A DNA stretch of 36,130 bases from an uncultured Bacilli bacterium. Lineage in GTDB: Bacteria > Bacillota_I > Bacilli_A > RF39 > UBA660. Location of the stretch: contig CALVII010000005.1 of the NCBI GenBank assembly GCA_944329465.1, forward strand, positions 1 through 36,130, in the 5' to 3' direction. Both the position numbers and the translations under genes were made by a program. Shown here in pieces: positions 1 through 35,113 of the stretch. The notes under the pieces are model-generated. The model was not told the DNA's origin, did no database searches, and saw only the letters and a program-made list of their open reading frames with translations. Each line of letters opens with the position of its first letter. Position 1 is the stretch's first letter.

Positions 1-1854
1 GATAAATATTTTAATGAATTTAGAAAAACTCATAATCAAGGTGTTTTTGATGTTTATACTGATGAAATTAGAAGAGCAAGACATAATGGTTTACTTACGG
101 GACTTCCTGATGCTTATGGTAGAGGAAGAATCATAGGAGATTATAGAAGGGTTGCTTTATATGGTATTGACTATTTGATGGAGCAAAAGAAAAATGAATG
201 GGATAATAAGTTATTAGGTCCAATGACTGATGATTTAATTAGACTTAGAGAAGAAGTGTCAATGCAGTATAGAGCTTTAGATGAGATTAAGAAGATGGCT
301 AGTAGGTATGGCTTTGATATTTCTAGGCCAGCTACTAATTCTAAAGAAGCTGTGCAGTGGACTTACTTTGGTTATTTAGCTTCTGTTAAAGAAAATAATG
401 GGGCAGCTATGAGTTTAGGTAGAGTAGATGCATTTTTTGATATTTATTTTGAAAGAGATTTAAAAGAAGGTTTAATTACAGAGGAAGAGATTCAAGAGTT
501 AATTGATCAGTTTGTTATTAAACTTAGACTTGTTAGGCATTTAAGAACTCCTGATTATGATGAGTTATTTTCTGGAGATCCAACTTGGGTAACGTGCTCT
601 ATTGGTGGAATTACTAATGAGGGCGAAAGCATGGTTACTAAGACAAGCTATAGAATTTTAAATACTTTAACTAATTTGGATACTTCACCAGAACCTAATA
701 TGACGGTTTTATGGTCTGTTAAGTTACCTGAGGCTTTTAAGAAATACTGTGCAAAAATGAGTATTGAAACAGATGCTATTCAATATGAAAATGATGATGT
801 TATGAGACCTGTTTATGGTGATGATTATGCGATTGCGTGCTGCGTTTCGGCAATGCGTGAGGGTAAGGATATGCAGTTTTTTGGAGCTAGATGTAATTTA
901 GCTAAATCACTTTTATATGCAATTAATGGTGGTACTGACGAGAGAACTGGGGAGTTAGTTGTCGAAGGTTTTGATAAAATAACTGATGAGGTACTTGATT
1001 ATGATAAGGTTAAAGATGCTTACTTTAAAATGATTGAAAAAGAAGCTGATATTTATTCTAATGCGATGAACATTATTCACTATATGCATGATAAATATGC
1101 TTATGAAGCTGGACAAATGGCTTTACATGATACTTTTGTCAATAGACTAATGGCTTATGGTGTGGCTGGACTTTCAGTGGCGACTGATTCACTTTCAGCT
1201 ATTAAGTATGCAAAGGTTAGACCAATTAGAAATGATAAAGGTATTGCTATAGATTTTGAGATAGATGGAGACTATCCTAAATATGGTAATGATGATGATA
1301 GGGTAGATAATATTGCGAAAGAAATATTAGATAAGATGTTTAAGGAACTTTCTAAACATAAATGTTATAGAAATGCCCATCCTACTTTATCAGTCCTTAC
1401 TATTACTTCTAATGTGGTTTATGGTGAAAAAACTGGAGCGACACCTGATGGTAGAAAAGCTGGTGAGCCTTTCGCACCTGGGGCTAATCCAATGCATGGT
1501 AGGGATAGTAGTGGAGCAATTGCCTCACTTAATTCAGTTGCTAAACTTGATTATGCGAATTGTTGCCGTGATGGTATTTCTAATACATTTAGTATTGTTC
1601 CATCTTCTTTAGGTCATTCTTTAGAAGAGAGAGTGGAAAATTTAGTTTCTTTACTTGATGGTTATTTTGTTCAAGGAGCACATCATTTAAATGTTAATGT
1701 TTTAAATAGAGAAATGTTAATAGATGCAATGAACAACCCTGATAAATATCCACTTTTAACAATTAGAGTATCTGGTTATGCCGTTAGATTTAATAGACTT
1801 ACAAGAAAACAACAAGAGGAAGTTATTGCAAGGACATTCCATGAAAAAATGTAG
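1..1854 (+). CDS. pflB: Pyruvate formate-lyase (formate C-acetyltransferase), 5' end missing
   Basis: Glycyl-radical enzyme that converts pyruvate and CoA to acetyl-CoA and formate in anaerobic cytoplasm. The frame is open from the first base of the window, so the start lies upstream; 617 residues are visible against about 740-750 for the family. The segment before the first internal ATG (175) already reads as PFL, including the motif [20 protein letters not shown]. The adjacent catalytic cysteines are in IACCVSAM (codons 280-281, bases 838-843). The C-terminal glycyl-radical loop is [13 protein letters not shown], with the radical Gly at codon 592. The stop overlaps the start of pflA, which supplies the activating enzyme. 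Identification is very secure. Confidence 0.97.
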
Positions 1855-2575
1855 TGGTTCGGTTGATTCGATTGAGACTATGGGCCTAGTTGATGGCCCT
1901 GGTATTAGAACGGTTGTGTTTTTGACCGGTTGTATGCTAAGATGTTTATATTGCCATAATCCAGAAATGTGGACTAAGGGTAAGGATAATTATACACCAG
2001 AGGAGTTAGTTAAAAAAATAATTAGAAATAAACCTTATTTTGGTAAAAAAGGTGGAGTAACTTTTTCTGGTGGAGAGCCACTTTTACAAATAGATTTTTT
2101 GACCAAGTGCTCTAAGTTACTGAAAAAAGAAGGAATTAATATTGCTTTAGATACAGCTGGTGTTGGTCTAGGCGATTATAAAGAAATCTTAGATTTAGTG
2201 GACTTAGTTATATTTGATGTTAAATATACTGATGGTGACGGTTATGAAAAGTTAACTGGTTATAATATGCTTGAGAGTGAAAGATTTATTCGTGATTTAA
2301 ATAAAAGTGGTAAGGATGTATGGATTCGTCAGGTTATTGTGCCTGGGATGATGGATAGTGAAGAATATATTAATAGTTTAGCTAAGTATATTTTGAAAAT
2401 TAAGAATGTTCAAAAAATAGAGTTTTTACCATTTCATCATTTGGGTTTTTCTAAGTATGATGAACTTAATTATTTGAATCCTTTAGAAGGTACGCCTGAG
2501 ATGGATAAAGATAAATGTGATGAGTTATATAATAAGTTTATGAAAAAATATAATGAATTAAAGGAGAATTTATGA
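1841..2575 (+). CDS. pflA: Pyruvate formate-lyase activating enzyme (radical SAM)
   Basis: Radical-SAM activase that abstracts hydrogen from the PFL glycine. The iron-sulfur motif CxxxCxxC is in [11 protein letters not shown] near the N-terminus, followed by the SAM-binding [10 protein letters not shown] segment. I chose the ATG at 1841 because it has AAGGA about seven bases upstream and gives the usual start just before the [17 protein letters not shown] motif; an ATG at 1778 would add 21 unrelated residues inside pflB. The product is 244 residues, normal for PflA. It overlaps pflB by 14 bases, which suggests translational coupling. Confidence 0.96.
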
Positions 2576-2910
2576 TATTTATATGGTATCCGAAGTGTTC
2601 GACATGTAAAAAAGCTAAGAAATGGCTGGATGATAATGGGATTAAATATACTTTAAGGGATATTGTTTTAGAAACACCCACAGAAGAAGAGCTTAGTAAA
2701 TGGGTAAAAGAAAGTGATTTAGATATTAAAAAGTTTTTTAATACTTCTGGCAATAAATATAGAGAACTTGGACTCAAAGATAAGTTAGATAATATGAGTT
2801 TTGATGAGAAAGTTAAGTTGCTTTCTAGTGATGGTATGCTTATAAAAAGACCACTTATTATTGGTAAAAAAATTATTCCAGGTTTTAAGAATTATGATAG
2901 TTTAAAATAG
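2572..2910 (+). CDS. ArsC/Spx-family thioredoxin-fold protein
   Basis: A 112-residue protein of the ArsC/Spx/YffB family, with a CSTCKKAKKWL redox motif at residues 9-19 and the family C-terminus KRPLIIGKKIIPGF. The two cysteines form a CxxC pair as in Spx-type regulators. Family members include RNA-polymerase-binding stress regulators and proteins of unknown function, and the sequence alone does not decide between these. The ATG overlaps the pflA stop by four bases (ATGA), with AAGGAG just upstream, so it is the last gene of the pfl operon. It is followed immediately by a terminator. Confidence 0.85.
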   Translation: MIFIWYPKCSTCKKAKKWLDDNGIKYTLRDIVLETPTEEELSKWVKESDLDIKKFFNTSGNKYRELGLKDKLDNMSFDEKVKLLSSDGMLIKRPLIIGKKIIPGFKNYDSLK

Positions 2911-2932
2911 GTTTTTGAGGCCTATTTTTTTA
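2904..2932 (+). terminator. Rho-independent terminator of the pfl operon
   Basis: The inverted repeat AAAATAGG (2904-2911) and CCTATTTT (2921-2928) forms a hairpin followed by a T run. It overlaps the stop codon of the ArsC/Spx-like gene. Confidence 0.85.
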
Positions 2933-2961
2933 TTGACACTTATTTTAAATTATTTTATACT
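2933..2961 (+). promoter_or_regulatory. SigA-type promoter of the ubiquitin-domain gene
   Basis: TTGACA at 2933-2938, a 17-base spacer and TATACT at 2956-2961. It lies directly after the pfl terminator and 27 bases before the ATG at 2989, which has a GGAGG ribosome-binding site. The gene is therefore a separate, probably well expressed transcription unit. Confidence 0.8.
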
Positions 2962-2988
2962 GGGTATAATAAGAGTGGAGGAGTTTTT

Positions 2989-4335
2989 ATGAGACGCAGT
3001 TTAAAATTTTATTTTTTTATATGTTTATTTATGATGGTTTTAGTATTTCCAGTTAAAGCAAATGCTATGCAATTATTTGTACAAACATTAACTGGTAAGC
3101 ATATTACGATAGAAGTGGAACCCACTGATAAAATAGAGAGTATTAAAGAAAAGATTGAAGATAAAGAATGGGTAGCAACGAATTTACAAAAGCTTATTTT
3201 TGCAGGTAAGGTTTTAGAGGATGGAAAAACATTACAAGATTATAGCATTCAAAAAGACAGTACACTTCATTTGACATTACTTCCATTTTCTATGGGTGGC
3301 CAAGAGGTATCCATTGTTCAGCACGGTGATGGTTTATATATTGATGGTTATGAAAAAGATAAATTTACTTATAGAGGAAGTAATCCAAATAATTATATTT
3401 TATTTAATAATGAGATGTGGCGAATTATTTCGGTTCAAGATGGCAGTTTAAAAATAGTTAAGGAAGATTTATTATCTTTAGAAAAACCGTTTAATGAGGC
3501 TTTGGATCAAAATTGGGATAATTCATCTTTGAAGGCTTACGTGAATGGCGAATATTATGATAATTTAAATGACAATGTTAAAAAATATATTGAAAATAAT
3601 ACTTGGAATATGGGGGATATTTCTTTAAATAATGATGATTTAAGGAATCAGATAACTAGTGAAAATAGGAGACAATCTAATAATAGTTATGTTGGTTTAA
3701 TGACTGTTTCAGAATATTTAAGGAGTAACACTAATAAAGGAAGTTGTGAGACATTTAGCTTAAATAATTTTAATTTTTCGGCATGTCAAAGCACTAATTG
3801 GATGTTTAATGGTAAGGCTTTTTGGACTTTGACAGCGGATGACTTGAAACCTTATATGGTAAATTTTGTTCAAGATGATGGCACTATTAATAGAGATAAT
3901 TCACATGTATTATTTGGGGTTAGACCAGTTTTGGTTTTGAAGGATAATATTTCTTTAATTGGTCAGGGGACAAAAGATAATCCGTTTGCCATTATAGATA
4001 TTAATGTTTTAGATAGTTTGAATGGTAGTGTGAGTTATAGCATTAGCAATGGATTGGTCGTGGTTAAAACGCAAGCTGATGAAGGTTATGAGTTAGATAA
4101 GATAATGGTTAAAGGGACAAATGGGAATATTTCTTTAAGTGATAATACTTTTGTTTTGCCTAGTGATGGATTTGTAACAATTGAGGCTGCTTTTAAAGAA
4201 ATTAATAGTTTTAATGATGAGGGTGTTAGTAATCCTGAAACATCAGATAATATTATAATTTATGTGGCTACCCTAATTATAGCTTTAGTGATTATAGTTT
4301 TGGCAATTATATCTATAAAGAAGAACAAAAAATAG
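2989..4335 (+). CDS. Secreted cell-surface protein with N-terminal ubiquitin domain and C-terminal sorting signal
   Basis: 448 residues. Residues 1-26 are a signal peptide ending ANA; cleavage there would expose Met27 of a ubiquitin domain (27-104), just like ubiquitin Met1. By hand alignment, 48 of the first 71 ubiquitin positions are identical, including MQ-FV, TLTGK, LIFAGK, LEDG and QK-STLHL. Lys11, 27, 29, 33, 48 and 63 are kept, as are Leu8 and Ile44; Lys6 is Gln and Val70 is Thr. The tail differs (LLPFSMGG) but still ends in Gly-Gly before continuing. Residues about 126-333 resemble the DUF6273-like surface domain ([20 protein letters not shown]). A small beta repeat follows at about 334-405 (GYELDKIMV). 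The C-terminus is NPETSD (415-420), a membrane helix and KKNKK, which looks like a sortase signal. The role is unknown; host mimicry is only an inference. It is transcribed alone. Confidence 0.9.
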
Positions 4336-4353
4336 GCTGAAGCCTGTTTTTTT
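4328..4353 (+). terminator. Rho-independent terminator after the ubiquitin-domain gene
   Basis: AGGC (4334-4337), a TGAA tetraloop and GCCT (4342-4345), extended by A-T and one G-T pair, followed by a run of T. The hairpin includes the stop codon. Confidence 0.8.
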
Positions 4354-4360
4354 GAAAAAT

Positions 4361-4407
4361 CTTGATTTGGTGTAAAAGCAGCGTTTAAAAATTCTTGATT
4401 TGGTGTA
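4361..4407 (+). repeat. 33-bp-spaced direct repeat in decayed ORF region
   Basis: The 14-mer CTTGATTTGGTGTA occurs at 4361-4374 and again at 4394-4407. The offset is 33 bases, exactly eleven codons, so both copies share the frame of the decayed ORF that follows. It looks like a small tandem duplication inside a former coding region. Confidence 0.6.
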
Positions 4408-4612
4408 TAAAAAATACAATAATTATTTAGCTACACCTTATATAATTCATACAGGTGATTATAAGGAAGATGATGGAATAATATATTTACCTGTTTATAT
4501 GACTATTCTTTTATGATGGAAGATAATTGGTAATGAAAGTACTTTTGAAGAGGTGAGTAGAACTAAGACTTTTGTGCTTAAAATATTAAATAAGGGGTTT
4601 AATTTAGATTAA
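4376..4612 (+). pseudogene. Decayed ORF of unknown family
   Basis: Between the ubiquitin-domain gene and frr there is no intact gene. One frame is open from 4376 to TAA at 4610-4612 apart from a single in-frame TGA at 4514-4516. It has coding-like composition (for example ATPYIIHTGDYKEDDG before the stop and WKIIGNESTFEEVSRTKTF after it). It has no good start codon or ribosome-binding site, and the 14-mer duplication lies at its 5' edge. I do not recognise the family. It is most likely a gene remnant, since the window otherwise uses TGA as a normal stop. From 4613 to 4732 I see only AT-rich DNA, with TATAAT at 4721-4726 as a possible -10 for frr. Confidence 0.4.
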
Positions 4613-6476: not shown

Positions 6477-7019
6477 ATGAAAATATATGTTATTTCAGGG
6501 AAAGCTAGGCATGGTAAGGATACTATAGCTTTAGATATAAAAAAAATATATGAAGAGAAAGGTTTAAAGGTTATTAATTTGTCTTACGGGAGTTATATTA
6601 AAGAATATGCGAAGAAAATTAGTGATTGGGATGGAAGTGAAGATACTAAACCTAGAGAGCTATTACAAGAACTTGGAACAGAGATTATAAGAAAAAAAAT
6701 AGATAATGACTTTTTTGTTAGAAGAATATGTGAAGACATTAAGGTTTATAGTTATTATTTTGATATTATTACTATTTCTGATGCGAGATTTCCAAATGAA
6801 CTAGAGTGGCCAAAGAATAATTTTGATAATGTGATTAATATTAGGGTAATTAGAGACGGATATGATAGTGTTTTGTCGGAAAAAGAGCAAAAACATTTGA
6901 CTGAGGTGGCTTTAGATGAGTATAATAGTTACGATTATGTGATTCATAACAATGGAACTTTATCTGATTTAAAAGATAAGGTTTTAGATGTGGTAAGGAA
7001 GGTAGAACATGAATATTAG
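6477..7019 (+). CDS. P-loop deoxynucleotide monophosphate kinase-like protein
   Basis: 180 residues with an N-terminal P-loop, GKARHGKDTIA (residues 8-18, variant Walker A with Gly-Lys-Asp). The LLQELGTEIIRKK and SDARFPNELEW segments resemble phage-type dNMP kinases and related AAA-type nucleotide kinases. Substrate is not certain; it may act in nucleotide salvage. The ribosome-binding site GGGAGG is at 6466-6471. It overlaps the start of alaS by eleven bases, implying coupled translation, although no functional link to aminoacylation is evident. Confidence 0.7.
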   Translation: MKIYVISGKARHGKDTIALDIKKIYEEKGLKVINLSYGSYIKEYAKKISDWDGSEDTKPRELLQELGTEIIRKKIDNDFFVRRICEDIKVYSYYFDIITISDARFPNELEWPKNNFDNVINIRVIRDGYDSVLSEKEQKHLTEVALDEYNSYDYVIHNNGTLSDLKDKVLDVVRKVEHEY

Positions 7020-8757
7020 AGAAGAATTTATAAAATATTTTGAAAAAAACGGACACAAACAAATACCCAGTAGTCCTATAGTTCCAGAAAACGATCCAAC
7101 CGTTTTATTTAATACGGCAGGAATGCAGCCACTTGTTCCCTATTTAATGGGAGAAAAGCACCCATATGGTAAAAGGCTTTGTGATTATCAAAAGTGTGTA
7201 AGACTTACTGATTTAGATGAAATTGGAGATAAGACACATCATACATTTTTTGAAATGTTAGGTAATTGGAGTTTAGGAGATTATTTTAAAAAGGAAGCTA
7301 TAGGTTATAGTTTTGAGTTTTTGACTAAAGTTTTAAATATTCCTTTAGAAAGGCTTGCAGTTACTGTATTTGAGGGTGAAGGTAAGATTCCACGTGACGA
7401 GGTGGCAGCTAATCGTTGGCGAGAGCTTGGAATTAGCGAGGATAGAATTGCTTATTTAGGGTCTAAAGATAACTTTTGGATAGCTGGTGAATCCGGTCCT
7501 TGTGGAGGAGATACAGAGATATTTTATTTTAGAAGTAATGATGAAATTCCTAAGAAATTTGATCCAGAAGATGATAGATGGGTTGAGATTTGGAATAATG
7601 TGTTTATGGAGTTTTACAAAGATGAAAATGGAAATATATCTGAGTTAAAGCAAAAAAATGTCGATACTGGTATGGGTTTAGAAAGAATTGTAGCTGTTTT
7701 AGAAGGAGTGGATGATAATTATAAGAGTTCTATTTGGTTAGATGTGGTTGATAAATTAGAAAAACTTACAGACTTATCTTATGAGGGTAATGAAAAGTCT
7801 ATGAGAATTATAGTAGATCATATTAGAACTTCTGTGTTTATTGCGGCAGATCCTGCTGGTATTAAACCTAGTAATACTGACCAAGGTTATATTTTGAGAA
7901 GACTAATTAGAAGATATATTAGACAAGCTAGAAAATTGGGTATTGATATTAATAGTGATTTTGATTTAGAAATTGCTTCACTTATTATTAAAAAATATGA
8001 AAAATACTATAGTGAACTTTCTGAAAATAAAAATAGTGTTTTAGAGGTTTTAGCTAACGAGAAGAAAAAGTTTAGTAGAACACTTGAGAAGGGGTTAAGA
8101 GAGTTTGAAAAGTTAGTTAGTAATGAAACTAAAATTATCGATAAAAATGTTGCTTTTAAGTTATATGATACTTATGGATTTCCAATTGAACTTACTTTAG
8201 AAGAAGCTAGTGATAGAGGAATGGGGGTCGATGTGGATGGTTTTTATGCAAAGTTTAGAGAACATCAAGAGAAATCTAGAACGGCTTCTAAAGGTAAATT
8301 TAAAGGTGGTTTATCTGGAAATAGTGAAACAGAAACTAAGTTTCATACAGCAACGCATTTACTTAATGCGGCACTTAAGGAAGTTATTGGTCCAGATGTT
8401 CATCAATTAGGAAGTAATATTACACCTGAGAGATTAAGGTTTGACTTTCCGTGTGATCATAAGATGACTGATGAAGAGAAAAAAAAGACTGAGGATTTGG
8501 TTAATAAATGGATAGAAGAAAATTTACCGGTTGAAAAAATAGAGATGAGTAAAGAAGAGGCTATTAAGTCTGGGGCTGAATGTACTTTTATAGATAGATA
8601 TCCTGATTTAGTTACAGTTTATAAAATTGGTGATGTTTCAATGGAATTATGTGGTGGTCCTCATGTAAGTCATACTGGTGAACTTGGTCATTTTAAGATT
8701 AAAAAAGAAGAGTCAAGTAGTGCGGGTGTTAGAAGAATAAAGGCTATTTTAGAATAG
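7009..8757 (+). CDS. alaS: Alanyl-tRNA synthetase, short form lacking the C-Ala domain
   Basis: Class II synthetase for tRNA-Ala. Motif 1 lies around residues 15-40 (FNTAGMQPLVPYL), motif 2 around HHTFFEMLGNWSLGDYFKKE, and motif 3 is VDTGMGLERI. The editing domain is present with HTATH (His446, His450) and CGGPH (Cys548, His552), the four ligands of the editing zinc site. At 582 residues it is roughly 290 shorter than the usual form: the C-terminal C-Ala/DHH-type region is absent and the linker between the tRNA-recognition and editing domains is compressed. It ends cleanly in its own terminator, so this is a short type rather than a truncation. Confidence 0.94.
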   Translation: MNIREEFIKYFEKNGHKQIPSSPIVPENDPTVLFNTAGMQPLVPYLMGEKHPYGKRLCDYQKCVRLTDLDEIGDKTHHTFFEMLGNWSLGDYFKKEAIGYSFEFLTKVLNIPLERLAVTVFEGEGKIPRDEVAANRWRELGISEDRIAYLGSKDNFWIAGESGPCGGDTEIFYFRSNDEIPKKFDPEDDRWVEIWNNVFMEFYKDENGNISELKQKNVDTGMGLERIVAVLEGVDDNYKSSIWLDVVDKLEKLTDLSYEGNEKSMRIIVDHIRTSVFIAADPAGIKPSNTDQGYILRRLIRRYIRQARKLGIDINSDFDLEIASLIIKKYEKYYSELSENKNSVLEVLANEKKKFSRTLEKGLREFEKLVSNETKIIDKNVAFKLYDTYGFPIELTLEEASDRGMGVDVDGFYAKFREHQEKSRTASKGKFKGGLSGNSETETKFHTATHLLNAALKEVIGPDVHQLGSNITPERLRFDFPCDHKMTDEEKKKTEDLVNKWIEENLPVEKIEMSKEEAIKSGAECTFIDRYPDLVTVYKIGDVSMELCGGPHVSHTGELGHFKIKKEESSSAGVRRIKAILE

Positions 8758-24658: not shown

Positions 24659-25060
24659 ATGAAAGAGTCATTTTGGGGCATATTTGTATTAGGTCTTGGT
24701 GTTATGTCAATATTCTTTATTGTTTTATTTCAAAACTTAACTAATACTGACGAACATAATTCCCAGCTTTTAAAAGAAGTTACCGAAGCTTCTATGTGGG
24801 ATGCGTTTGATTATGCATCATATAGAACGAATGGTGAAATTAGAATTGATAGAGAAAAATTTGTTGAAAATTTTATCAGAAGATATGCTGAAAGTGCAAG
24901 TATGTCTAGGCAATATACAATTAAATTTTATGATATTAATGAGAAACCACCAAAAGTAAGCTTAAGTGTACAAAGCGGTGTGGTAGGTGTAGGAGGTAGC
25001 ACCAAGATAACATTTGATTTACAAAATAGAATCGATGCTATTTTGGAAGTACCTTATTAA
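24659..25060 (+). CDS. Pseudopilin-like membrane protein (DUF5411-like)
   Basis: 133 residues. One N-terminal helix (FWGIFVLGLGVMSIFFIVLF) is followed by a soluble domain of about 105 residues (REKFVENFIRRYAES, then a beta-rich GVVGVGGSTKITF end). It resembles the small DUF5411-type proteins of uncultured Bacilli in pilus loci and TadE/TadF-like minor pilins; the name is from memory. GGAGG is seven bases before the ATG. It lies between the 939-residue protein and CpaB. Confidence 0.6.
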   Translation: MKESFWGIFVLGLGVMSIFFIVLFQNLTNTDEHNSQLLKEVTEASMWDAFDYASYRTNGEIRIDREKFVENFIRRYAESASMSRQYTIKFYDINEKPPKVSLSVQSGVVGVGGSTKITFDLQNRIDAILEVPY

Positions 25061-25086
25061 AATAAAAGAAAAGAGAGGATGAGATT

Positions 25087-26142
25087 ATGAATAATGTAAT
25101 GGCGTCAGCCAAAAAATTTTTTAAAAACAAAAATGTAGTAACGATTATTGGAGTTGTTATAATTCTTATCTTGCTATATGTTGGTTATAGTACACAAATC
25201 AACAATGCAGTAGAACCAGTACAAGTTCCTGTTGCTACACAAACTATTCAACCTAGAACAGAAATCACCGATGATATGGTACAGCTTGTAGATATGCCTA
25301 ATGTTTCACTTAGTGATAATGTAATTAGATCAACATCACAAATTATTGGAAAATATTCCAATGTAAATTCAGTAATTCCTGAAGGTAGTATGTTTTATAC
25401 TGATACAGTAATTTCTGAAGACGAACTTCCTGATGCAGCATTTACGAAAGTTAAAGCTGGAGAGGTAGTTTATAATTTCCCTGTAGATATGGAAAGTACT
25501 TATGGTAATTCAATTTTTCCAGGTAATATGATTGATATTTATATGAAAGTTGGGGATGGAACTGACGAGAAGATTATGCTTGGTAAGTTAATTGAAAATG
25601 TTGAAGTGTTAGCTGTTAAGGATTCTTCTGGTAGAGCTGTATTTGAAAATACTAGTGAAGAGAGAACTCCATCAATGTTAATATTTGGATTAAAGAGTAA
25701 TTTGTATAGTATTTTAAAGAAAGCATCATATATGGATGGGCTTGGTGTTGAACTTTATCCAGTACCACATGGTGGAGAGGTAGATACTGAAGGTGTTACA
25801 CAAGTTTCTACACAACAATTAGTTGATTATATTGATGCACATTCTATAAATATTCCTGAACCTGAAGTTCCAGCTGAGGAAGATGCATTATTACCAACTG
25901 TTAATGAAACTGGAGGAAACCCTAATACAGTAACTATTACATTCCCTGATGGATGTGACGACAAATATACTTGCACCTATGTTAAAGATAGTGGTAGAAG
26001 TCAAAGGGTTACAGGAAGAAAGCAAGAACTTCTTTATACGGGAAATGGAACTTTAACGGCAACGGTTCAAGAAAAAGATGGAACAGCACATTCAATTACG
26101 ATTGATATTCCAATGTCTAATTCAAATAATGCGGAGCAATAA
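25087..26142 (+). CDS. cpaB: CpaB/RcpC-like Flp pilus assembly protein (SAF domain)
   Basis: 351 residues. An N-terminal helix (VVTIIGVVIILILLYVGYS) is followed by a SAF domain (PVATQTIQPRTEITDDMVQL, then GKYSNVNSVIPEGSMFY) and an RcpC-like region (GNMIDIYMKVGDG, IENVEVLAVKDSSG). This is the CpaB architecture. The C-terminal about 70 residues (a short DGCDDKYTCTYV beta segment) are not typical and may be a surface extension. Located three bases upstream of the ATPase gene, as in Tad loci. Confidence 0.85.
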   Translation: MNNVMASAKKFFKNKNVVTIIGVVIILILLYVGYSTQINNAVEPVQVPVATQTIQPRTEITDDMVQLVDMPNVSLSDNVIRSTSQIIGKYSNVNSVIPEGSMFYTDTVISEDELPDAAFTKVKAGEVVYNFPVDMESTYGNSIFPGNMIDIYMKVGDGTDEKIMLGKLIENVEVLAVKDSSGRAVFENTSEERTPSMLIFGLKSNLYSILKKASYMDGLGVELYPVPHGGEVDTEGVTQVSTQQLVDYIDAHSINIPEPEVPAEEDALLPTVNETGGNPNTVTITFPDGCDDKYTCTYVKDSGRSQRVTGRKQELLYTGNGTLTATVQEKDGTAHSITIDIPMSNSNNAEQ

Positions 26143-26144
26143 AA

Positions 26145-27326
26145 ATGAACAATATGTTTGACCAAATAGATTTCGGACATTTGAAACCTTATTTGGAAGA
26201 TGATGATATAACAGATATTTCTTATGATAATGGTGGACAAATACATTTAAAAACGTTGTCTAAAGGAATATTTAGAATTGAAAATCCGGCTATTGACAAT
26301 TCCTTTATGGAAAAGTTAGCGTTTCAATGTTCTAATGTTATGGGTAAAACTTTTAACATGGCACATCCTTTCTTGGATGCCGAAAGTGCGGAGTTACGTT
26401 TAGCTTTTATCCATGATTCTGTAGCACAAAATGGTATTGCTTGTGTTGTTCGTAAAACACCAGCCAAGATACGTCTGCAGAAGGATAAAATAGTTGCGGA
26501 TAAATATGTTGAATTAGATATTATTGACTTTTTAGAACAATGTGTATTAGGACACTGTAATATGATTGTTTGTGGTGAAACTGGTTCTGGTAAAACGGAA
26601 TTGGTTAAGTATTTAGCTTCTAAGATAGCCGAAAATGAAAAGGTTATTACAATAGAAGATACTTTAGAACTTCATTTGGATAAGATTTTTCCACACCGTG
26701 ATATAGTAGCTTTAAAGACGAATAATATTGCTTCTTATACAGACATATTGGAAGCTTGTATGAGACAAAATCCTAAATGGATTTTGCTTTCGGAGGTACG
26801 TAGTGCGGAAGCTGTTTTAGCAGTTCGTAACTCTATTTCTTCAGGTCATTATATTTTATCAACTATCCATGCTGATAAAGCCTCTTCAATACCTAACCGT
26901 ATGTACAGTTTGCTTGAAACTAATCAGGATTTGGATCAATTTATGAGCTCTATATGTAGGTATATTCAAATCGGTATATATGTTAGAGGTTATCAAGATA
27001 AAGTGACTAAGAAGTTTAAACGTGAAATAGCAGAGGTTACAGAGTTTTATGTAACTAATGATACAAATGAAGCACGTCACAATGTTATTTATAGAAAAGG
27101 TGCGGATGGTAAGATTATTAGAAATAATCCTAGTCCATATTTATTAGATTATCTAGAGGTTCAAGGAGTATTTTTGCCAAAGGAACTTCAAAATATGGCT
27201 GGTGAAACTTATACTGAAAGTGATTCTATGAAAGCAAATGCGGAAGTAGGAAATTCTAATAATTTAACTGATGAGGTAACGCCTACTACTTCAAATCAAT
27301 CAACTACAGAAAATTTATTTGAATAA
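26145..27326 (+). CDS. cpaF: CpaF/TadA-like secretion ATPase
   Basis: 393 residues, VirB11/PulE superfamily hexameric ATPase that powers pilus assembly. Walker A is GETGSGKT (144-151), followed by ITIEDTLELHL (Asp box). The Walker B region is WILLSEVRS (S216-E217-V218-R219-S220), and TIHAD has the His box (His242). In most TadA proteins the Walker B segment reads GEVRG, so the Ser replacements are unusual but the catalytic Glu and Arg are kept. The C-terminal about 60 residues are Ser/Thr/Asn-rich and probably disordered. Confidence 0.9.
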   Translation: MNNMFDQIDFGHLKPYLEDDDITDISYDNGGQIHLKTLSKGIFRIENPAIDNSFMEKLAFQCSNVMGKTFNMAHPFLDAESAELRLAFIHDSVAQNGIACVVRKTPAKIRLQKDKIVADKYVELDIIDFLEQCVLGHCNMIVCGETGSGKTELVKYLASKIAENEKVITIEDTLELHLDKIFPHRDIVALKTNNIASYTDILEACMRQNPKWILLSEVRSAEAVLAVRNSISSGHYILSTIHADKASSIPNRMYSLLETNQDLDQFMSSICRYIQIGIYVRGYQDKVTKKFKREIAEVTEFYVTNDTNEARHNVIYRKGADGKIIRNNPSPYLLDYLEVQGVFLPKELQNMAGETYTESDSMKANAEVGNSNNLTDEVTPTTSNQSTTENLFE

Positions 27327-27340
27327 AGGAGGGGGATGCA

Positions 27341-28246
27341 ATGACATTTGTAATATTTTTAATTGTTTTGGCAATTGCAATATTTGTTATTTTATATCGT
27401 AATAACAGTAATAGTAACAATGTTTATAAGTTTATCAATAAAAAAATTGGTGTAATTTATGACAAATATGCTCCTTATTCATTTAAAGTAGTTAGAGATA
27501 AGGTTAAGGAGTTGGGTCAGGAATATACTCCAAGACAATATGCAATTCAAGTTATAGTGTTTGCGGTAAGTGCGGCAGTTGTTACATATTTGTATTTTTA
27601 TAACATTGTTGTTTCACTTATTTATTCAGCTTTAGCTGTATTAGTTATTCCTTATTTGACTTATTTAAGGTGCAAAAGACTTTACAGTGAATTTATATTT
27701 GAACAAATTCAAGTTTATACGACTAATACTATAATGGAGTTTGCGACAACACAATCTTTTGTTAAAGCTTTAGAGGGCGTTTATGCTTCAAATGTATTAG
27801 AGGATCCAGTTAAATCAGATGTTAAAATGATGATTGATATGGCTTATGAAAATGGAACTATTGATCAATCACTTAACTATATGAATTCAAAATATGATTT
27901 TTATATAGTTCGTAATATGCATCAGTTATTTTTACAAATTACTAATGAAGGTGCGAGAGATTCTGGTGAATCACTTGAAAATATGAGTCAGGATATAGAT
28001 ATGTTAGTTGAGGGTGTATATAGAGATAGAATTGATAGAGCGTCTTTCCATAAGAAGTTTTTACAATTTGGTATTATACTTTATTTAATGGTTATGCTTG
28101 TCCAGTTTATGCTTGGTATGGAAACATACAACCAAATGCTTAATGACTGGTGGGTTCAAGTGTTATTACACGGTATTATTTGGCTAAATACATTCTTTAT
28201 ACTTTCTGGTGAGAAATATTATAATGAAGATGTGGGGGCGGAATAA
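27341..28246 (+). CDS. tadB: TadB-like inner-membrane platform protein
   Basis: 301 residues. An N-terminal helix, two helices around 70-105, a cytoplasmic T2SSF-type helical domain (EQIQVYTTNTIMEFATTQSF, then FLQITNEGARDSGESL) and two C-terminal helices. Position and order (ATPase, TadB, TadC) match Tad loci. GGAGGGGG is before the ATG. Together with the next gene it would form the platform that the ATPase turns. Confidence 0.8.
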   Translation: MTFVIFLIVLAIAIFVILYRNNSNSNNVYKFINKKIGVIYDKYAPYSFKVVRDKVKELGQEYTPRQYAIQVIVFAVSAAVVTYLYFYNIVVSLIYSALAVLVIPYLTYLRCKRLYSEFIFEQIQVYTTNTIMEFATTQSFVKALEGVYASNVLEDPVKSDVKMMIDMAYENGTIDQSLNYMNSKYDFYIVRNMHQLFLQITNEGARDSGESLENMSQDIDMLVEGVYRDRIDRASFHKKFLQFGIILYLMVMLVQFMLGMETYNQMLNDWWVQVLLHGIIWLNTFFILSGEKYYNEDVGAE

Positions 28247-29041
28247 ATGGGTATAGGTTTAACTTTTATAATTATTGCAATTATTGTAGTGTTTTTGCTT
28301 GAGTATAACAACCATTTTAGCTCTAACAAATTTATTAAAGAGACTGAACCATATTTTAGAGTGATGATGGAGTCTGATTACGAGTTTTTACTTAAAGTAA
28401 GATATGGCGGAGATGTTGATGTAAATAAGATGTATGGACTTAGAGTTCGTAATGGAATTATCGGTATCATATTTTGCTTATTTATCTTTATGGATCAACT
28501 TTCGTTTGCTTATATATTACTTTCTTTGTTAATTGGTTTTGCTTTATTTAAATTACCTTATATGCAATTAAGTAGTTATTACAAGCAAAATTTGCATAAA
28601 ATTAATTTAATGCTTCCATACTATTTAAAGGGACTAGAAATTTTAATTCAACATTATACAGTTCCAGTTGCACTTGCAAGATCGATTGATACAGCTCCTG
28701 AAATTTTTAAGCCAGGTTTACAAAAATTGGTAGCTAAAATTGATTCTGGTGATTCTTCAGTACAGCCTTATATGGATTTTGCGAATGAATATCCAGTTCG
28801 TGATTCTATGAGAATGATGCGACTTTTATATCGTTTAGGTCTTGGTAGTCAAGAAAACAAACAAGAACAATTGCTTATGTTTTCAAGAACTATTTCCTCT
28901 TTGCAGAATAAGGCTCGTGAACAAAAATATAAAGAACGTCTAGAGAAGATGGAAAATAAGACTATGATGATGTTATTTTGTACAGGTGGAGGAATTTTAG
29001 GTTTTTTGCTTTTGTCAATGATGATGATGATGAATTATTAA
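28247..29041 (+). CDS. tadC: TadC-like inner-membrane platform protein
   Basis: 264 residues, starting right after the TadB-like stop. Helices at 1-18, about 65-100 and 240-262 flank a T2SSF-like cytoplasmic domain (LMLPYYLKGLEILIQHYTVP, then YMDFANEYPVRDSMRMMRLL). The sequence ends with a Met-rich helix, SMMMMMNY. Likely partner of the TadB-like protein. Confidence 0.8.
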   Translation: MGIGLTFIIIAIIVVFLLEYNNHFSSNKFIKETEPYFRVMMESDYEFLLKVRYGGDVDVNKMYGLRVRNGIIGIIFCLFIFMDQLSFAYILLSLLIGFALFKLPYMQLSSYYKQNLHKINLMLPYYLKGLEILIQHYTVPVALARSIDTAPEIFKPGLQKLVAKIDSGDSSVQPYMDFANEYPVRDSMRMMRLLYRLGLGSQENKQEQLLMFSRTISSLQNKAREQKYKERLEKMENKTMMMLFCTGGGILGFLLLSMMMMMNY

Positions 29042-29044
29042 CTA

Positions 29045-29073
29045 TAGTCAAATATTTTAAAGTATGTTATAAT
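29045..29073 (+). promoter_or_regulatory. Pilin promoter
   Basis: TAGTCA (29045-29050), 17-base spacer and TATAAT with extended TG (29068-29073), inside the operon just before the pilin candidate. This fits a need for extra pilin mRNA. Confidence 0.6.
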
Positions 29074-29100
29074 TAAAAATAGGAGGGCAGGTGATAAGTT

Positions 29101-29334
29101 ATGAAGGAAGCGGCTGGTGAGGCTAACTTAACTGTTGTAGCTATCATTTTAATTGGTGTTGTTGTTGCGGTTGTTACTCCACTTGTTACTAGTTTAATGA
29201 GTAGTTCGGCCGAGAAAGCTTGTTGTTCAGATGCAGGTGGTATTTGGAGAAATGGTGGATGTCAACCGGGTAGCAGTGCATATGATTCAACTGGATATAG
29301 AGAATGTGTTGAACAAGCAACATCCAATCAATAA
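29101..29334 (+). CDS. Major pilin candidate (Flp-like)
   Basis: 77 residues. MKEAAGEANLTVVAIILIGV shows a short leader, Gly-Glu at 6-7 and then a long hydrophobic helix, the pattern of type IV/Flp prepilins cleaved after Gly. The C-terminal half has a Cys-Cys pair and two further cysteines (ACCSDAGGIWRNGGC, then REC). AGGAGGG is 13 bases from the ATG, unusually far. Its own promoter and a following attenuator-like hairpin point to higher expression than the neighbours. No prepilin peptidase gene is in the window. Confidence 0.7.
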   Translation: MKEAAGEANLTVVAIILIGVVVAVVTPLVTSLMSSSAEKACCSDAGGIWRNGGCQPGSSAYDSTGYRECVEQATSNQ

Positions 29335-29346
29335 GATTAAAAATAT

Positions 29347-29368
29347 GCTTGCTTTAATGCAAGTTTTT
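29347..29368 (+). terminator. Attenuator-like hairpin after the pilin gene
   Basis: CTTGC (29348-29352), a six-base loop, GCAAG and TTTTT. The stem is short, so partial read-through to the minor pilin genes is expected. Confidence 0.55.
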
Positions 29369-29394
29369 CCTTTAATGTTGAGGTGGTGATTTAA

Positions 29395-29892
29395 ATGCGA
29401 GAGAGTATTGGCAGTGTATTTTTGTATAATATAGTTATTTTGTTTGTTATTATAGTTTTTGGTTTACTTTCTGCGACTATAAGTTACTATAAAGCTTTTA
29501 AGGTTAATGAGAGAATATTATATTCATTAGATAAGTTTGAAGGGTATAATCAATTTTCAGAAGCTGAAATAGAAGATTATTTGGTTAGTATTGGTTATAC
29601 TTATAGTCCTGATGGTCAAAATGGATGTGCTGCCGAAAAAGATGGTGGTCAATTAATTAAATCTAATGATGCAAAGCATTTATACTGCGTTTATTATTTT
29701 TCAGATGATAGAGGTAGTAATGAGAAAGATAGGCTGAATGGAGATAAAGAACCAATTTACTATAATTATTCAGTAACTAGTTATATTTATGCGGATTTAC
29801 CAATCGTTGGAGCGTTTAAATTACCTGTTTATACTAAGGGTGAGAGAATATATAATTTTAGTGATCACCAAGAGCAGGGGGCGAGAATATGA
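29395..29892 (+). CDS. TadE-like minor pilin 1
   Basis: 165 residues: N-terminal helix (FLYNIVILFVIIVFGLLSAT), then SYYKAFKVNERIL and a soluble domain with IEDYLVSIGYTY and a cysteine pair. It is paralogous to the next gene, sharing the helix-SY-KAFKVN layout and the IxxxLPVxG ending. GTGGTG precedes the ATG. It overlaps the next gene by four bases. Confidence 0.7.
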   Translation: MRESIGSVFLYNIVILFVIIVFGLLSATISYYKAFKVNERILYSLDKFEGYNQFSEAEIEDYLVSIGYTYSPDGQNGCAAEKDGGQLIKSNDAKHLYCVYYFSDDRGSNEKDRLNGDKEPIYYNYSVTSYIYADLPIVGAFKLPVYTKGERIYNFSDHQEQGARI

Positions 29893-30374
29893 AAGAGGCT
29901 ATAGCTAATGCGGGTGTTTATAATTTAGTAATTATGTTTGTAATAATATTACTTGCTTTCTTTATTGGTTCACTTTCTTATTCTAAAGCTTTTAAAGTTA
30001 AAAATAAGATAATTGAAGAAATCGAAAAAGATCAAGGTTATACAACTGGTGTAGCTGATTCTACCGAAGATAGAGTAGAAGATTGGATTGCGAGTATTGG
30101 TTATAGAATAAATACAGGAAATGATAGAAATACTGAAAACTGTCCTAAGGTAACAGGTAATGGTGGTGAAGAAGGTAAACTTGTAAACAGTGATGGAGAT
30201 TATCAATACTGCGTTTATGAGTTTGATACATGCACTAAAGGTGCGGATAAAGCTAAATGCGGTAAATATTACCGCGTAACAGCTTATATGTATTTCGATG
30301 TACCAATTTTAAGTGGATTACTTAAATTACCGGTTAGTGGTGAGACCATGATATTTAATGAGATAGATAGTTAA
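29889..30374 (+). CDS. TadE-like minor pilin 2
   Basis: 161 residues, paralogue of the preceding gene: VYNLVIMFVIILLAFFIGSL helix, SYSKAFKVKNKII, then VEDWIASIGYRI, a four-cysteine segment (ENCPKV, YCVYEFDTC, AKCG) and the end GLLKLPVSGETMIF. The four-base ATGA overlap couples it to its twin. The pair would form minor pilins of the Tad-like appendage. Confidence 0.7.
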   Translation: MKEAIANAGVYNLVIMFVIILLAFFIGSLSYSKAFKVKNKIIEEIEKDQGYTTGVADSTEDRVEDWIASIGYRINTGNDRNTENCPKVTGNGGEEGKLVNSDGDYQYCVYEFDTCTKGADKAKCGKYYRVTAYMYFDVPILSGLLKLPVSGETMIFNEIDS

Positions 30375-30389
30375 GGAGGCGAAGAATAA

Positions 30390-31400
30390 GTGAATGTAAT
30401 AGTTGCGAATAAATACCGTGATGCTTTATCTAGTTTGGATATTGAAGTAATTAAAAAATTAGAAGGAGAGTTTACAGTTGACGAAATAATTGGAACTTTT
30501 CAAAACTTCTTCTTTAATAAAATGATATTGGATGTTACAGCATTAAAGGATTATAAAAACATTAAGACTTTACAACAGTTATCTTTATCACTTGATATGG
30601 ATAAACTAATTTTGTTACTTGATGGTTCACCGGAAACTTCAGATCCTGAATATTTATCTGACTTAATTTCTATGAGAATTTATAATTTTACCATGAATGT
30701 CGAAGGTGTAAAGTGGCTTTATGAACATCCAAATAGTTATCGTGATGTAGCTCAGTACCATCAATTAGATACAACACATACTGGTGGTTATAGTATGCCG
30801 GCAGCAGCACCTACTGGTTATTCAGATTTAAAACAAAATATGGTTATTTGTTTTAAAGATCTTACTCCAGGAGCTGGTGCAACGACCTTGACATATATTG
30901 CAAAAAAACAATTAGCTCGCAATTATGATGTTGTAGCTATTGAAGTAGATAAACATGATTTTATGTATTTCGATGAGGATAAAATGTTTAGTGTTTCAAG
31001 TAATGAACTTGGTAATACTATTTCTAAATATAGTGGTTCTGATGTTATTTTGATAGATGCGAATACTAGTTCTGTAGCAGAAGGATTTGCGACGGAAACA
31101 ATTTATTTATTAGAACCATCTAAAATCCAGATTAACAAATTACTTGCAAGAGATCCTAATGTTTTAAAGAATTCAAAAAACAAACGGGTTGTTTTGAATC
31201 AATGTATGCTTAGTGATCAAGATGTTTCTGATTTTGAATATGAGACTGGTTTAAGTGTATTTTATAGAATCCCACCACTTAATGATCAAAGTTCTCATAA
31301 TGCGGCTTTAGATCAATTTTTAGTTAAATTAGGCTTTTATAAACAAGATGTTTCTAGTGCCGCGGACAATAAAAAAGGAATTATGGGATTATTTAAATAA
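30390..31400 (+). CDS. tadZ: TadZ/CpaE-like ParA-family protein with degenerate P-loop
   Basis: 336 residues. A receiver-like N-terminal part of about 130 residues is followed by a ParA/MinD-type domain. The expected KGGVGKT is PGAGATTLT here (160-168): both the signature Lys and the P-loop Lys are replaced, so ATP hydrolysis is doubtful. VILIDANTSSVAEGF is the Walker-B-like strand. The C-terminal KKGIMGLFK resembles the amphipathic membrane tail of TadZ/MinD proteins. TadZ proteins set the polar position of Tad pili. Start is GTG with AAGGAGG. Confidence 0.75.
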   Translation: MNVIVANKYRDALSSLDIEVIKKLEGEFTVDEIIGTFQNFFFNKMILDVTALKDYKNIKTLQQLSLSLDMDKLILLLDGSPETSDPEYLSDLISMRIYNFTMNVEGVKWLYEHPNSYRDVAQYHQLDTTHTGGYSMPAAAPTGYSDLKQNMVICFKDLTPGAGATTLTYIAKKQLARNYDVVAIEVDKHDFMYFDEDKMFSVSSNELGNTISKYSGSDVILIDANTSSVAEGFATETIYLLEPSKIQINKLLARDPNVLKNSKNKRVVLNQCMLSDQDVSDFEYETGLSVFYRIPPLNDQSSHNAALDQFLVKLGFYKQDVSSAADNKKGIMGLFK

Positions 31401-32329: not shown

Positions 32330-32335
32330 TATAAT
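32330..32335 (+). promoter_or_regulatory. Extended -10 of paralogue 1
   Basis: TGTTATAAT ending at 32335, 26 bases before the ATG at 32361. No good -35 is visible at 17 bases. Confidence 0.5.
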
Positions 32336-32360
32336 GTTTATGTATATAAGGTGGGATTAT

Positions 32361-33251
32361 ATGAAAAAGTATGTTTTATTTTTTTTAGTTGTTTTTTATG
32401 TTTTGTTTATTAATATAAATGATGTTAACGCTATTTGTAGTGCTACTACTCCTTGGGAATGTGAAGGTGGTGTATATAATGGCCCTTCTACCGGTAGTAG
32501 TTCTACTAGTGGTGAGGGTGGTTCTAGTTGTATTGATAATTGTAATAAAAGTGCTGCTTGTACAACTGGTGATCGTCAACAGTGTTCTGCTTGTAGGAGT
32601 CAATGCCAAGTAGAGGCAAATGAAGAAAAGGAAAAAGATGAGGCAAAAAAAGAAGAGGAATTAAATTTTGGTTCTAATGCTACTTCTAATGCTGATGATG
32701 CAACAAGTGCTACTAATGAAAAAAAAGAAGATCAAGATTCTTATTATAGGGATATTATAGAATCACAAAGTTGTTGTTATGATTATTTTGATGTAGGAAC
32801 CGCAGATTTTAGTAATTGTATAAAATATGCAACAGCCAACACAAATTATTGTAAAAATTACAGTGATAATATAAATGGTAATATAATTGATAGTATATTA
32901 TCGTGGGGTTCACCTGGAAGTTCAAATAACTATGATGGTTCATTTAAAGATCCATGTGCTTTGATAGATGGAGATATACAAAAAATATTACATAAAATAT
33001 TTTTTGGTATAAGTATTGCAGGAATAATTATATTAGTGGTTATGACAGCAATAAGTTTAGTAAAAGTTATTACAGCTAGCGAGGATGAGGCATTAAAGAA
33101 TTTCTTTAAGGGTTTATGGAAGAGATTAATTTGTTTAATAATTTTGTTATTATTACCTATGATAGTTACATTTATTATACAACTTGTAAATAATGTTGCA
33201 CCTAGTTTAGGTATTAAGAGTGATAATCCTTTGTGTAATATTACCGAATAA
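32361..33251 (+). CDS. Secreted Cys-rich protein with C-terminal T4SS-pilin-like module, paralogue 1
   Basis: 296 residues. ATG 32361 follows AAGGTGGG; the ATG at 32334 is in the promoter. It has a signal peptide (YVLFFLVVFYVLFININDVN, then A), then a Ser/Gly- and Cys-rich domain (CIDNCNKSAACTTGDRQQCS), an acidic/Lys linker and a second cysteine patch. The C-terminal about 100 residues are DPCALIDGDIQ, helix 1 (SIAGIIILVVMTAISLVKVI), loop ASEDEALKNFFKGLWKR, helix 2 (LICLIILLLLPMIVTFIIQL) and CNITE. That module is about 97% identical at DNA level to paralogue 2, while the N-terminal domain is unrelated in sequence. Confidence 0.8.
   Translation: MKKYVLFFLVVFYVLFININDVNAICSATTPWECEGGVYNGPSTGSSSTSGEGGSSCIDNCNKSAACTTGDRQQCSACRSQCQVEANEEKEKDEAKKEEELNFGSNATSNADDATSATNEKKEDQDSYYRDIIESQSCCYDYFDVGTADFSNCIKYATANTNYCKNYSDNINGNIIDSILSWGSPGSSNNYDGSFKDPCALIDGDIQKILHKIFFGISIAGIIILVVMTAISLVKVITASEDEALKNFFKGLWKRLICLIILLLLPMIVTFIIQLVNNVAPSLGIKSDNPLCNITE
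32949..33251 (+). repeat. Constant 3' module shared by three paralogues
   Basis: 303 bases collinear with 34743-35045 (9 differences by hand count). It is also collinear with the part of 35951-36130 that lies inside the window. It encodes the two-helix module and stop. Confidence 0.9.
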
Positions 33252-33359
33252 AAAAACGCAGTAAAATTCTTCATTCTATAAAGTATGTGATTATTATAAA
33301 AGTTTTTGTTAAATGGTGTTGGTAGATACTAAATGATACAAGTAACTGAGAATGAGAAG

Positions 33360-33390
33360 GTGTGTAAGTAAAAAAACTTACATACTTTTT
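33360..33390 (+). terminator. Hairpin with T tail near an IS-like end
   Basis: GTGTGTAAGT (33360-33369) pairs with ACTTACATAC (33376-33385), then TTTTT. GTGTGTAAGTAA recurs at 33512-33523, so the hairpin may belong to a transposon end as well as terminating transcription from paralogue 1. Confidence 0.5.
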
Positions 33391-33441
33391 AAGTGTGAAA
33401 AAATATAAGAAAGAGGCAAAAATACTAGAAATAAAAGTAAA

Positions 33442-33519
33442 AATGAATTAGTAAAAGTAATAATAGATACATATCAACCAGAAGCAGTTAAAGAAAAGTG
33501 TATCAAGAAAAGTGTGTAA
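33442..33519 (+). pseudogene. IS256-like transposase fragment (plus strand)
   Basis: A short frame reading NELVKVIIDTYQPEAVKEK resembles the N-terminal region of Mutator/IS256-type transposases. No start codon is seen and TAA follows at 33517-33519. It is only a remnant. Confidence 0.35.
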
Positions 33520-33790
33520 GTAACAAAAATATCATTTGATATTTTGAAACCACAAATATTTTCTATGGTGGCTGATATGTCTCTTTGATTCTTCCCTTTA
33601 GCATATTTAGATAAAACTTTTTGATCAATATTATAAATATTTTTTCTTAGGCATAACTTATGGTTTAAATGAACCATCTTGATTATGTGGATGTTGACTG
33701 TCATTTCACCCATACTAGTATTAATACTTTTAGTTATATATCCATTTCTTCTAATTGTTTTACAATCTCAGTTTTTTGAAAGACTTTTCT
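33474..33790 (-). mobile_element. IS256-like transposase remnant (minus strand)
   Basis: The minus-strand frame 33713-33474 contains KVLSKYAKGKNQRDISATIE and CGFKISND, matching the LYAKGMSTRDI region of IS256-family transposases. Upstream, up to about 33790, coding-like sequence with stops continues (KTEIVKQLEEM). The element is inactive. The region 33791-33980 holds no gene I can support, only the promoter of the next paralogue. Confidence 0.6.
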
Positions 33791-33943
33791 TAAAAGAAAA
33801 TTAACAAATTATATGTTAGGTTTTAGTAAGATAGAAAAATTGGTTTTTAAGGCAATACAATCTTTAGATAATTATTGATAATTTTTACATTTATTTTTTA
33901 AGTGATTGCCATAGTTAGGTTGCGGGCGATGTCTGCCGTATGA

Positions 33944-33949
33944 TATAAT
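33944..33949 (+). promoter_or_regulatory. Extended -10 of paralogue 2
   Basis: TGATATAAT ending at 33949, with a weak TTGCGG at 33920-33925 (18-base spacer). Confidence 0.45.
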
Positions 33950-33980
33950 TATTATGTGTATAATTAAGGTAAGGGATTTT

Positions 33981-35045
33981 ATGAAAAAATATATTGTAAC
34001 TGTTATAATTATTTTTTGTGTTTTATTTATAAATATAAGTGGAGTTAACGGGGCTATAGTATCAGAACCAGGTTGGACTTCTTCGGCCTCTTGTGATTAT
34101 GGAATTATATGTAATTATGAATTCTGTGGAAAACGTGGTTCTACTTCTGATCCCGGATATATTTCTCCAGAATGTTCTGATAGTGAGCAACACACTATTT
34201 TGCTTTCTGTTGCATATACTTGCGATTCTACTGATATTTCAGCTTCAAATTGTGATTCTTTTGTTTCCTGGGCAAAAGTAACTAGAAATTATCAATTAGG
34301 AAGTGATGTTAAGTTTGGAAATTATGATGATATATTTAAAGATGCGGATTATTGGAAAGATAGATTTAGTCATGGTTTTTCTTGTCCTTCTATGTATGTA
34401 TCTTTAAAAGAGCCGAGTGCAAACATATTTGAGACGGAGATTAATAACACATATTATTTTAGCTATAGTGATACTAGTGGAAAATTTATTCATCCTGTCA
34501 CTCAAGAAAATCAACAATATACTCCCGAAGCCTGTATAGATAAAGGTACAAGTTTTTCTGATATAGATAATAAAATGGGCAAAATAGTTGAAGACAACAT
34601 AACAGATACGGATGACCCCAATGCATCGATATTCTCTGGTGTTGATTGTAGTAAAGAAGAAAATAAAGATACTATTATTTGTTCAATATATGCTTGGGGA
34701 ATGGATTTGACAGGTGGTCCAAAATATAGCAGTGATGCGGTAGATCCATGTGCTTTGATAGATGGAGATATACAAGAATTATTACATAAAATATTTTTTG
34801 GTATAAGTGTTGGTGGAATAATTATATTAGTGGTTATGACAGCAATAAGTTTAGCAAAAGTTATTACAGCTAGCGAGGATGAGGCATTAAAGAATTTCTT
34901 TAAGGGTTTATGGAAGAGATTAATTTGTTTAATAATTTTGTTATTATTACCTATGATAGTTACATTTATTATACAACTTGTAAATAATGTCGCACCTAGT
35001 TTAGGTATTAAGAGTGATAATCCTTTGTGTAATGTTACTGAATAA
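33981..35045 (+). CDS. Secreted Cys-rich protein with C-terminal T4SS-pilin-like module, paralogue 2
   Basis: 354 residues. ATG 33981 has AAGG/AAGGG upstream; the ATG at 33954 overlaps the promoter. It has a signal peptide (VTVIIIFCVLFINISGVNG), then a Cys-rich domain of about 210 residues (CDYGIICNYEFCGKRGS, ASNCDSFVSWAK) and the linker FSGVDCSKEENKDTIICSIY. The same two-helix module as paralogue 1 ends the protein, with CNVTE. The N-terminal domain is homologous to paralogue 3, not paralogue 1. The protein should be held in the membrane by the helices, with the Cys-rich part outside. Confidence 0.82.
   Translation: MKKYIVTVIIIFCVLFINISGVNGAIVSEPGWTSSASCDYGIICNYEFCGKRGSTSDPGYISPECSDSEQHTILLSVAYTCDSTDISASNCDSFVSWAKVTRNYQLGSDVKFGNYDDIFKDADYWKDRFSHGFSCPSMYVSLKEPSANIFETEINNTYYFSYSDTSGKFIHPVTQENQQYTPEACIDKGTSFSDIDNKMGKIVEDNITDTDDPNASIFSGVDCSKEENKDTIICSIYAWGMDLTGGPKYSSDAVDPCALIDGDIQELLHKIFFGISVGGIIILVVMTAISLAKVITASEDEALKNFFKGLWKRLICLIILLLLPMIVTFIIQLVNNVAPSLGIKSDNPLCNVTE
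34635..34922 (+). repeat. Near-identical segment shared by paralogues 2 and 3
   Basis: 288 bases match 35843-36130 with one difference (A34891 versus G36099, Lys to Arg). The identity begins abruptly in the linker and is likely to continue beyond the window, which suggests very recent duplication or gene conversion. Confidence 0.92.
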
Positions 35046-35080
35046 ATGATTAAATTGTTTATTGTTTTATATAATTATGA

Positions 35081-35086
35081 TATAAT
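35081..35086 (+). promoter_or_regulatory. Extended -10 of paralogue 3
   Basis: TGATATAAT ending at 35086, 28 bases before the ATG at 35114, in the same position as for paralogue 2. Confidence 0.45.
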
Positions 35087-35113
35087 ATTTATAATAAGGA
35101 GAAGGGAAACACT

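Follow-up and report, generated by a model that had tools for sequence, protein, structure and literature searches.

A eukaryote-type ubiquitin as the predicted N-terminal tip of a putatively sortase-anchored surface protein in uncultured Bacilli

The window analyzed here, a 36,130-nucleotide stretch of contig CALVII010000005.1 from an uncultured Bacilli bacterium, contains an open reading frame (2989-4335, + strand) encoding a protein of 448 aa, in which a eukaryote-type ubiquitin lies between a signal peptide and a body ending in a sorting signal. We consider it probable (roughly 60%) that this ubiquitin faces outward as a binding module, carried by a protein that a class B sortase anchors, and we infer the functional steps to be as follows. 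A ubiquitin taken over from a eukaryote would have been adapted to form the N-terminal tip of a protein that is secreted and anchored by a sortase. Upon export by Sec, signal peptidase would cut between Ala26 and Met27, so that ubiquitin Met1 becomes the exposed N-terminus. An InlB-like repeat and DUF6273 would form the body of the protein, and its sorting motif would be cleaved as NPET/SD by a class B sortase, which would link the protein to the cell wall. Devoid of its diGly tail, the ubiquitin would presumably work as a stable beta-grasp, adhesin-like binding module facing outward toward a putative partner. The gene and its surroundings contain the following features:

2933..4383, + strand: accessory segment comprising exactly the ubiquitin-fusion gene, absent in the related genome G733 (alignment to its locus L069)
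2977..2984, + strand: Shine-Dalgarno-like GGAGGAGT, 5' of the start codon (read from the sequence)
2989..3066, + strand: predicted Sec signal peptide, residues 1-26, with predicted cleavage ANA/M (sequence; the same junction with Ala at -1 in 25/25 Bacillota relatives)
3067..3279, + strand: ubiquitin domain, residues 27-97, starting from ubiquitin Met1 and without the diGly tail (Pfam, identity, AF2 model)
3481..3942, + strand: DUF6273 domain, residues 165-318 (Pfam PF19789, 30.7 bits versus a cut-off of 23.5)
4024..4203, + strand: weak InlB B-repeat-like segment (Flg_new_2), residues 346-405, likely a stalk (15.1 bits, below the cut-off of 23.6)
4231..4335, + strand: sorting signal consisting of NPETSD, a hydrophobic helix, a KKNKK tail and the stop codon (sequence)

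The Pfam profile PF00240 scores 84.4 bits over residues 29-97 (E=4.5e-24; cut-off 25.4), and a phmmer search of the PDB returns 379 distinct chains at E<=0.001. Alignment with human ubiquitin reproduces the count made by hand in the initial annotation, 48 identical residues out of 71 (68%), with six of the seven lysines (K11, K27, K29, K33, K48 and K63) retained together with L8, I44, H68 and F4; K6 is replaced by Q, V70 by T and RLRGG by LLPFSM, such that the domain ends without the C-terminal RGG tail. Identity amounts to 46/71 for yeast and plant ubiquitin, 37/71 for NEDD8 and at most 28 for other ubiquitin-like proteins (Ubls). The predicted fold is likewise that of ubiquitin: the best PDB match of an AlphaFold (AF2) model of the domain (pLDDT 90.9) is ubiquitin, and the model superposes on 1UBQ with TM 0.88/0.91 and rmsd 0.7. 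A full-length model of the protein, built from three sequences, has a pLDDT of 39.5. The ubiquitin match is far above chance and recurs in many independent genomes.

In the window protein, neither ThiS, YukD nor the prokaryotic Ubl families give a Pfam match over cut-off, and the comparisons support a true eukaryote-type ubiquitin rather than a prokaryotic Ubl. Because similarity to ubiquitin is far above that to other Ubls and no prokaryotic Ubl family exceeds its cut-off, a eukaryotic source, as proposed in the initial annotation, appears well supported, even with a poorly resolved tree. The domain does share its beta-grasp fold with prokaryotic Ubls (ThiS, MoaD, YukD, multi-ubiquitin and bacterial conjugation systems), but it is distinguished from them by its eukaryotic ubiquitin sequence, its missing diGly, its predicted export and its genomic setting, as no E1/E2/JAB or deubiquitinase genes were found near the window gene. 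The domain tree is built on 74 columns. Within it, an SSDTI-type group inside the window's family has a support of 94/91 and a KHI-type group common to both Bacilli families that carry ubiquitin has 79/92. A tree constrained to unite every copy from the window's family is rejected (AU p 0.007, with the caveat that the groups had been picked out from the sequences beforehand), which makes more than one capture, or exchange between families, likely. A single origin of all bacterial copies, imposed as a constraint, is not rejected (AU p 0.19).

In the window protein the signal peptide ends ANA/MQLF, as read from the sequence, and Met27 corresponds to ubiquitin Met1, so that the exposure of Met1 upon cleavage, as envisaged in the initial annotation, holds as a prediction. 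An Ala at -1 closes the signal peptide before the domain in every one of 25 aligned Bacillota domains, the mature start coincides with ubiquitin Met1 in 23 of them, and Gly75-Gly76 is kept in none. Since the diGly tail has been lost, the window ubiquitin would be non-conjugatable.

Both of the remaining modules that had been proposed, a DUF6273-like body and an NPETSD-helix-KKNKK ending, are present as well. The DUF6273 match has an E-value of 3.5e-7, and Flg_new_2, the InlB B-repeat profile, exceeds its cut-off in a relative at L026. DUF6273 relatives without ubiquitin exist at two loci (L010 and L011); the DUF6273 profile has no relative among PDB entries, and no DUF6273 was found in viral contigs. 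The C-terminus (NPETSD at 4231-4248, then hydrophobic helix, then KKNKK) has the NPxTx motif, hydrophobic helix and basic tail of class B sortase substrates, and the genome also encodes a class B sortase; unlike such NPxTx surface proteins, the window protein carries ubiquitin as its N-terminal domain. Among same-family proteins with an intact C-terminus, 17/18 end in an NPxT-type signal and the remaining one in VPETG. Across the assembled sequence of the window genome, a draft of 81 contigs with 68% completeness, the only NPxTxDN codon match lies inside the ubiquitin-fusion gene.

A sortase of the class suited to an NPxTS-type signal was found in the window genome (L041; TIGR03064, 168.9 bits versus a cut-off of 153.75), where its gene does not adjoin the ubiquitin gene. 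Class B sortases are encoded by 37/44 genomes of the window's genus; because they are so widespread, mere presence is weak evidence and the argument rests on gene linkage. At 8/20 same-family loci the ubiquitin gene has a class B-type sortase gene no more than 1.5 kb away; of these eight sortases, three have a TIGR03064 score (two above the cut-off and one at 152.2 versus 153.75), and the other five are assigned by a TLSTC motif and similarity only. With duplicates removed, the binomial P for this linkage is ~1e-8 assuming two such sortases per genome and 2e-6 assuming five.

When examining the distribution of these genes, it is evident that the window's copy is not a one-off, but rather belongs to a patchy yet broad family of exported ubiquitins. 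Ubiquitin exceeds the Pfam cut-off in 17/386 genomes of the window's family (uncultured, ~1.1 Mb), in 4/44 of the window's genus, in 4/43 of a second family of the same class (Bacilli) and in 4/392 of a phylum-wide sample. The fusion itself, with signal peptide, ubiquitin, DUF6273-like body and NPxT signal as in the window, recurs in two other genera of the family (G145 and G819). Plasmid pRUMAL01 of Ruminococcus albus 7 encodes a "ubiquitin family protein" (WP_013483628.1), which similarly consists of a signal peptide followed by ubiquitin from Met1 without diGly; it differs from the window protein in being 66/75 identical to human ubiquitin, in its VTIPA-type secreted domain and in having no sorting signal. 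Three contigs of the IMG/VR viral collection that are of Gram-negative type (L049-L051) encode a signal peptide, ubiquitin and IPTL_CTERM (33.6 bits versus a cut-off of 20.5 in L049), which, judging from the sequences, is a similar way of display that uses an exosortase-type signal of Gram-negatives. On two further viral-collection contigs (L048 and L044) ubiquitin immediately follows the signal peptide, and a divergent ubiquitin-like domain lies behind a signal peptide on a Pseudoalteromonas plasmid. A search of viral contigs with the window ubiquitin gave no match, a search with the R. albus domain gave nine loci, some with signal peptides, and no ubiquitin was found in phage records.

Behind the ubiquitin, the relatives carry DUF6273, InlB B-repeats or a VTIPA-type secreted domain. 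Between relatives of the window's group, identity is 65-82% in the ubiquitin part and 24-40% in the remainder. The differing bodies are reminiscent of modular surface proteins. The ubiquitin genes of the R. albus plasmid (L023, 5923-6663) and of genome G478 (L034, 4407-5586) lie among secreted VTIPA-type proteins, and both neighborhoods include a similar membrane protein (IPGY/IPGF...NPCYF-like), which suggests a common cluster type. The ubiquitin copy at 3493-4180 of L036 (G255:C40) is decaying, with its gene split between two frames and fused to a hydrolase-like frame unrelated to it.

Several inferences can be made from the pattern of conservation among the 25 domains. Core positions, assigned on the basis of the general ubiquitin structure, match ubiquitin at 0.85 compared to 0.59 for surface positions, indicating that the fold is maintained. 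The Ile44, Ile36 and Phe4 patches, on the other hand, are kept no better than random surface sets (P 0.58, 0.45 and 0.88, respectively, as an average across 25 diverse proteins), which speaks for a fold preserved in a new role rather than for strict mimicry. The role of host mimic or decoy raised in the initial annotation draws no support from these three surfaces, none of which is selectively conserved. It seems unlikely that the displayed ubiquitin modulates eukaryotic cells in the gut, host or protist, by engaging their receptors (such as CXCR4) or ubiquitin-binding proteins. Such a role would be in keeping with the identity to ubiquitin and the hydrophobic, His and Lys residues kept in the window domain, with the 66/75 identity of the R. 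albus copy, and with the fact that extracellular ubiquitin is a CXCR4 ligand, contacting its receptor with its C-terminus and with the surface near Phe4 and Val70 (PMC4543903). Yet, in the window domain V70 has become T and the fusion takes the place of the flexible C-terminus, while divergent members have drifted far from ubiquitin and lost the patch despite keeping the design. We also doubt the wider proposal that bacteria of several phyla repeatedly captured eukaryotic ubiquitin to display a working surface mimic binding ubiquitin receptors of gut eukaryotes. Individual lineages, R. albus above all, could nevertheless be mimics.

A somewhat less probable scenario is that of interbacterial antagonism, in which the window protein would be a surface-held version of BfUbb, the antibacterial ubiquitin secreted by Bacteroides fragilis. 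BfUbb mediates intraspecies antagonism, its mature N-terminus aligns with ubiquitin residue 1 and it lacks GG (PMC3352274, PMC5705921), and the patchy presence of the Bacilli genes among close relatives is what a competition trait might exhibit. Still, BfUbb is small, secreted and has a C-terminal Cys, whereas the window protein is a larger fusion with a predicted anchor and without such a Cys, and no recurring immunity-like partner was observed in the ubiquitin-gene neighborhoods. As a precedent for a signal-peptide ubiquitin, BfUbb stands as the initial annotation had stated, and the parallels extend to the eukaryote-derived domain, the predicted residue-1 start, the patchiness among strains and the gut habitat (PMC3352274, PMC5705921). 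What sets the window protein apart from this Gram-negative example is that, in uncultured Bacilli, its ubiquitin tips a fusion with DUF6273 and a sortase signal, as one member of a multi-family set with several body types.

The outward-facing, anchored module that we favor is encoded by an accessory gene. In G733, which is 98.3% identical to the window across the 2.9 kb upstream, window positions 1-2932 and 4384-4528 are contiguous (98%), 2933-4383 is missing, and the empty-site junction falls within the T-run of the upstream terminator. The absence of exactly the ubiquitin-fusion gene from such a closely related genome makes it an accessory gene, by either gain or loss. In G752 the ubiquitin copy lies ~1.6 kb farther along, after an ATPase gene, and in G067 and G747 the copies are at other places. 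Window positions 4366-4528 are a remnant of the end of an ATPase gene that is intact in G731, G740 and G752. The neighbors of the window gene are PFL, radical SAM activase, ArsC, RRF and AI-2E transporter genes. An assembly chimera, the prospect of which had been raised initially, or eukaryotic contamination is, even with a genome of draft status, refuted by the equal GC of the ubiquitin part and the rest (30.0% vs 29.5%), the same fusion in many independent genomes, the ubiquitin on the complete R. albus 7 plasmid and the clean empty site in G733, with no supporting sign found.

Elsewhere in the window, an alanyl-tRNA synthetase (7009-8757) is only 582 aa long, having the Pfam catalytic and SAD domains and missing the usual C-terminal part. 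A Tad-type pilus-like cluster (24659-31400), recognized by reading only, comprises an assembly ATPase, two membrane platform proteins and small pilin-like proteins, and 32334-36130 encodes a tandem array of three or more secreted proteins that are nearly identical at the C-terminus and differ in their N-terminal parts.

Ubiquitin is usually viewed as eukaryotic, with BfUbb being the known bacterial exception in the literature cited above. We found no description of a sortase-anchored ubiquitin in an open-access library. Putatively anchored, modular, sortase-linked ubiquitin represents a recurring and apparently undescribed design across several lineages. Its patchy occurrence in Bacilli, Clostridia and Gram-negative-type contigs, together with the sorting signals and linked sortases, would amount to repeated capture and extracellular reuse of a core eukaryotic protein. 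Whether extracellular bacterial ubiquitin acts on host signaling, on rival bacteria or on neither is now testable, and R. albus 7, as a named strain whose plasmid has been sequenced completely, provides an organism in which to ask this.
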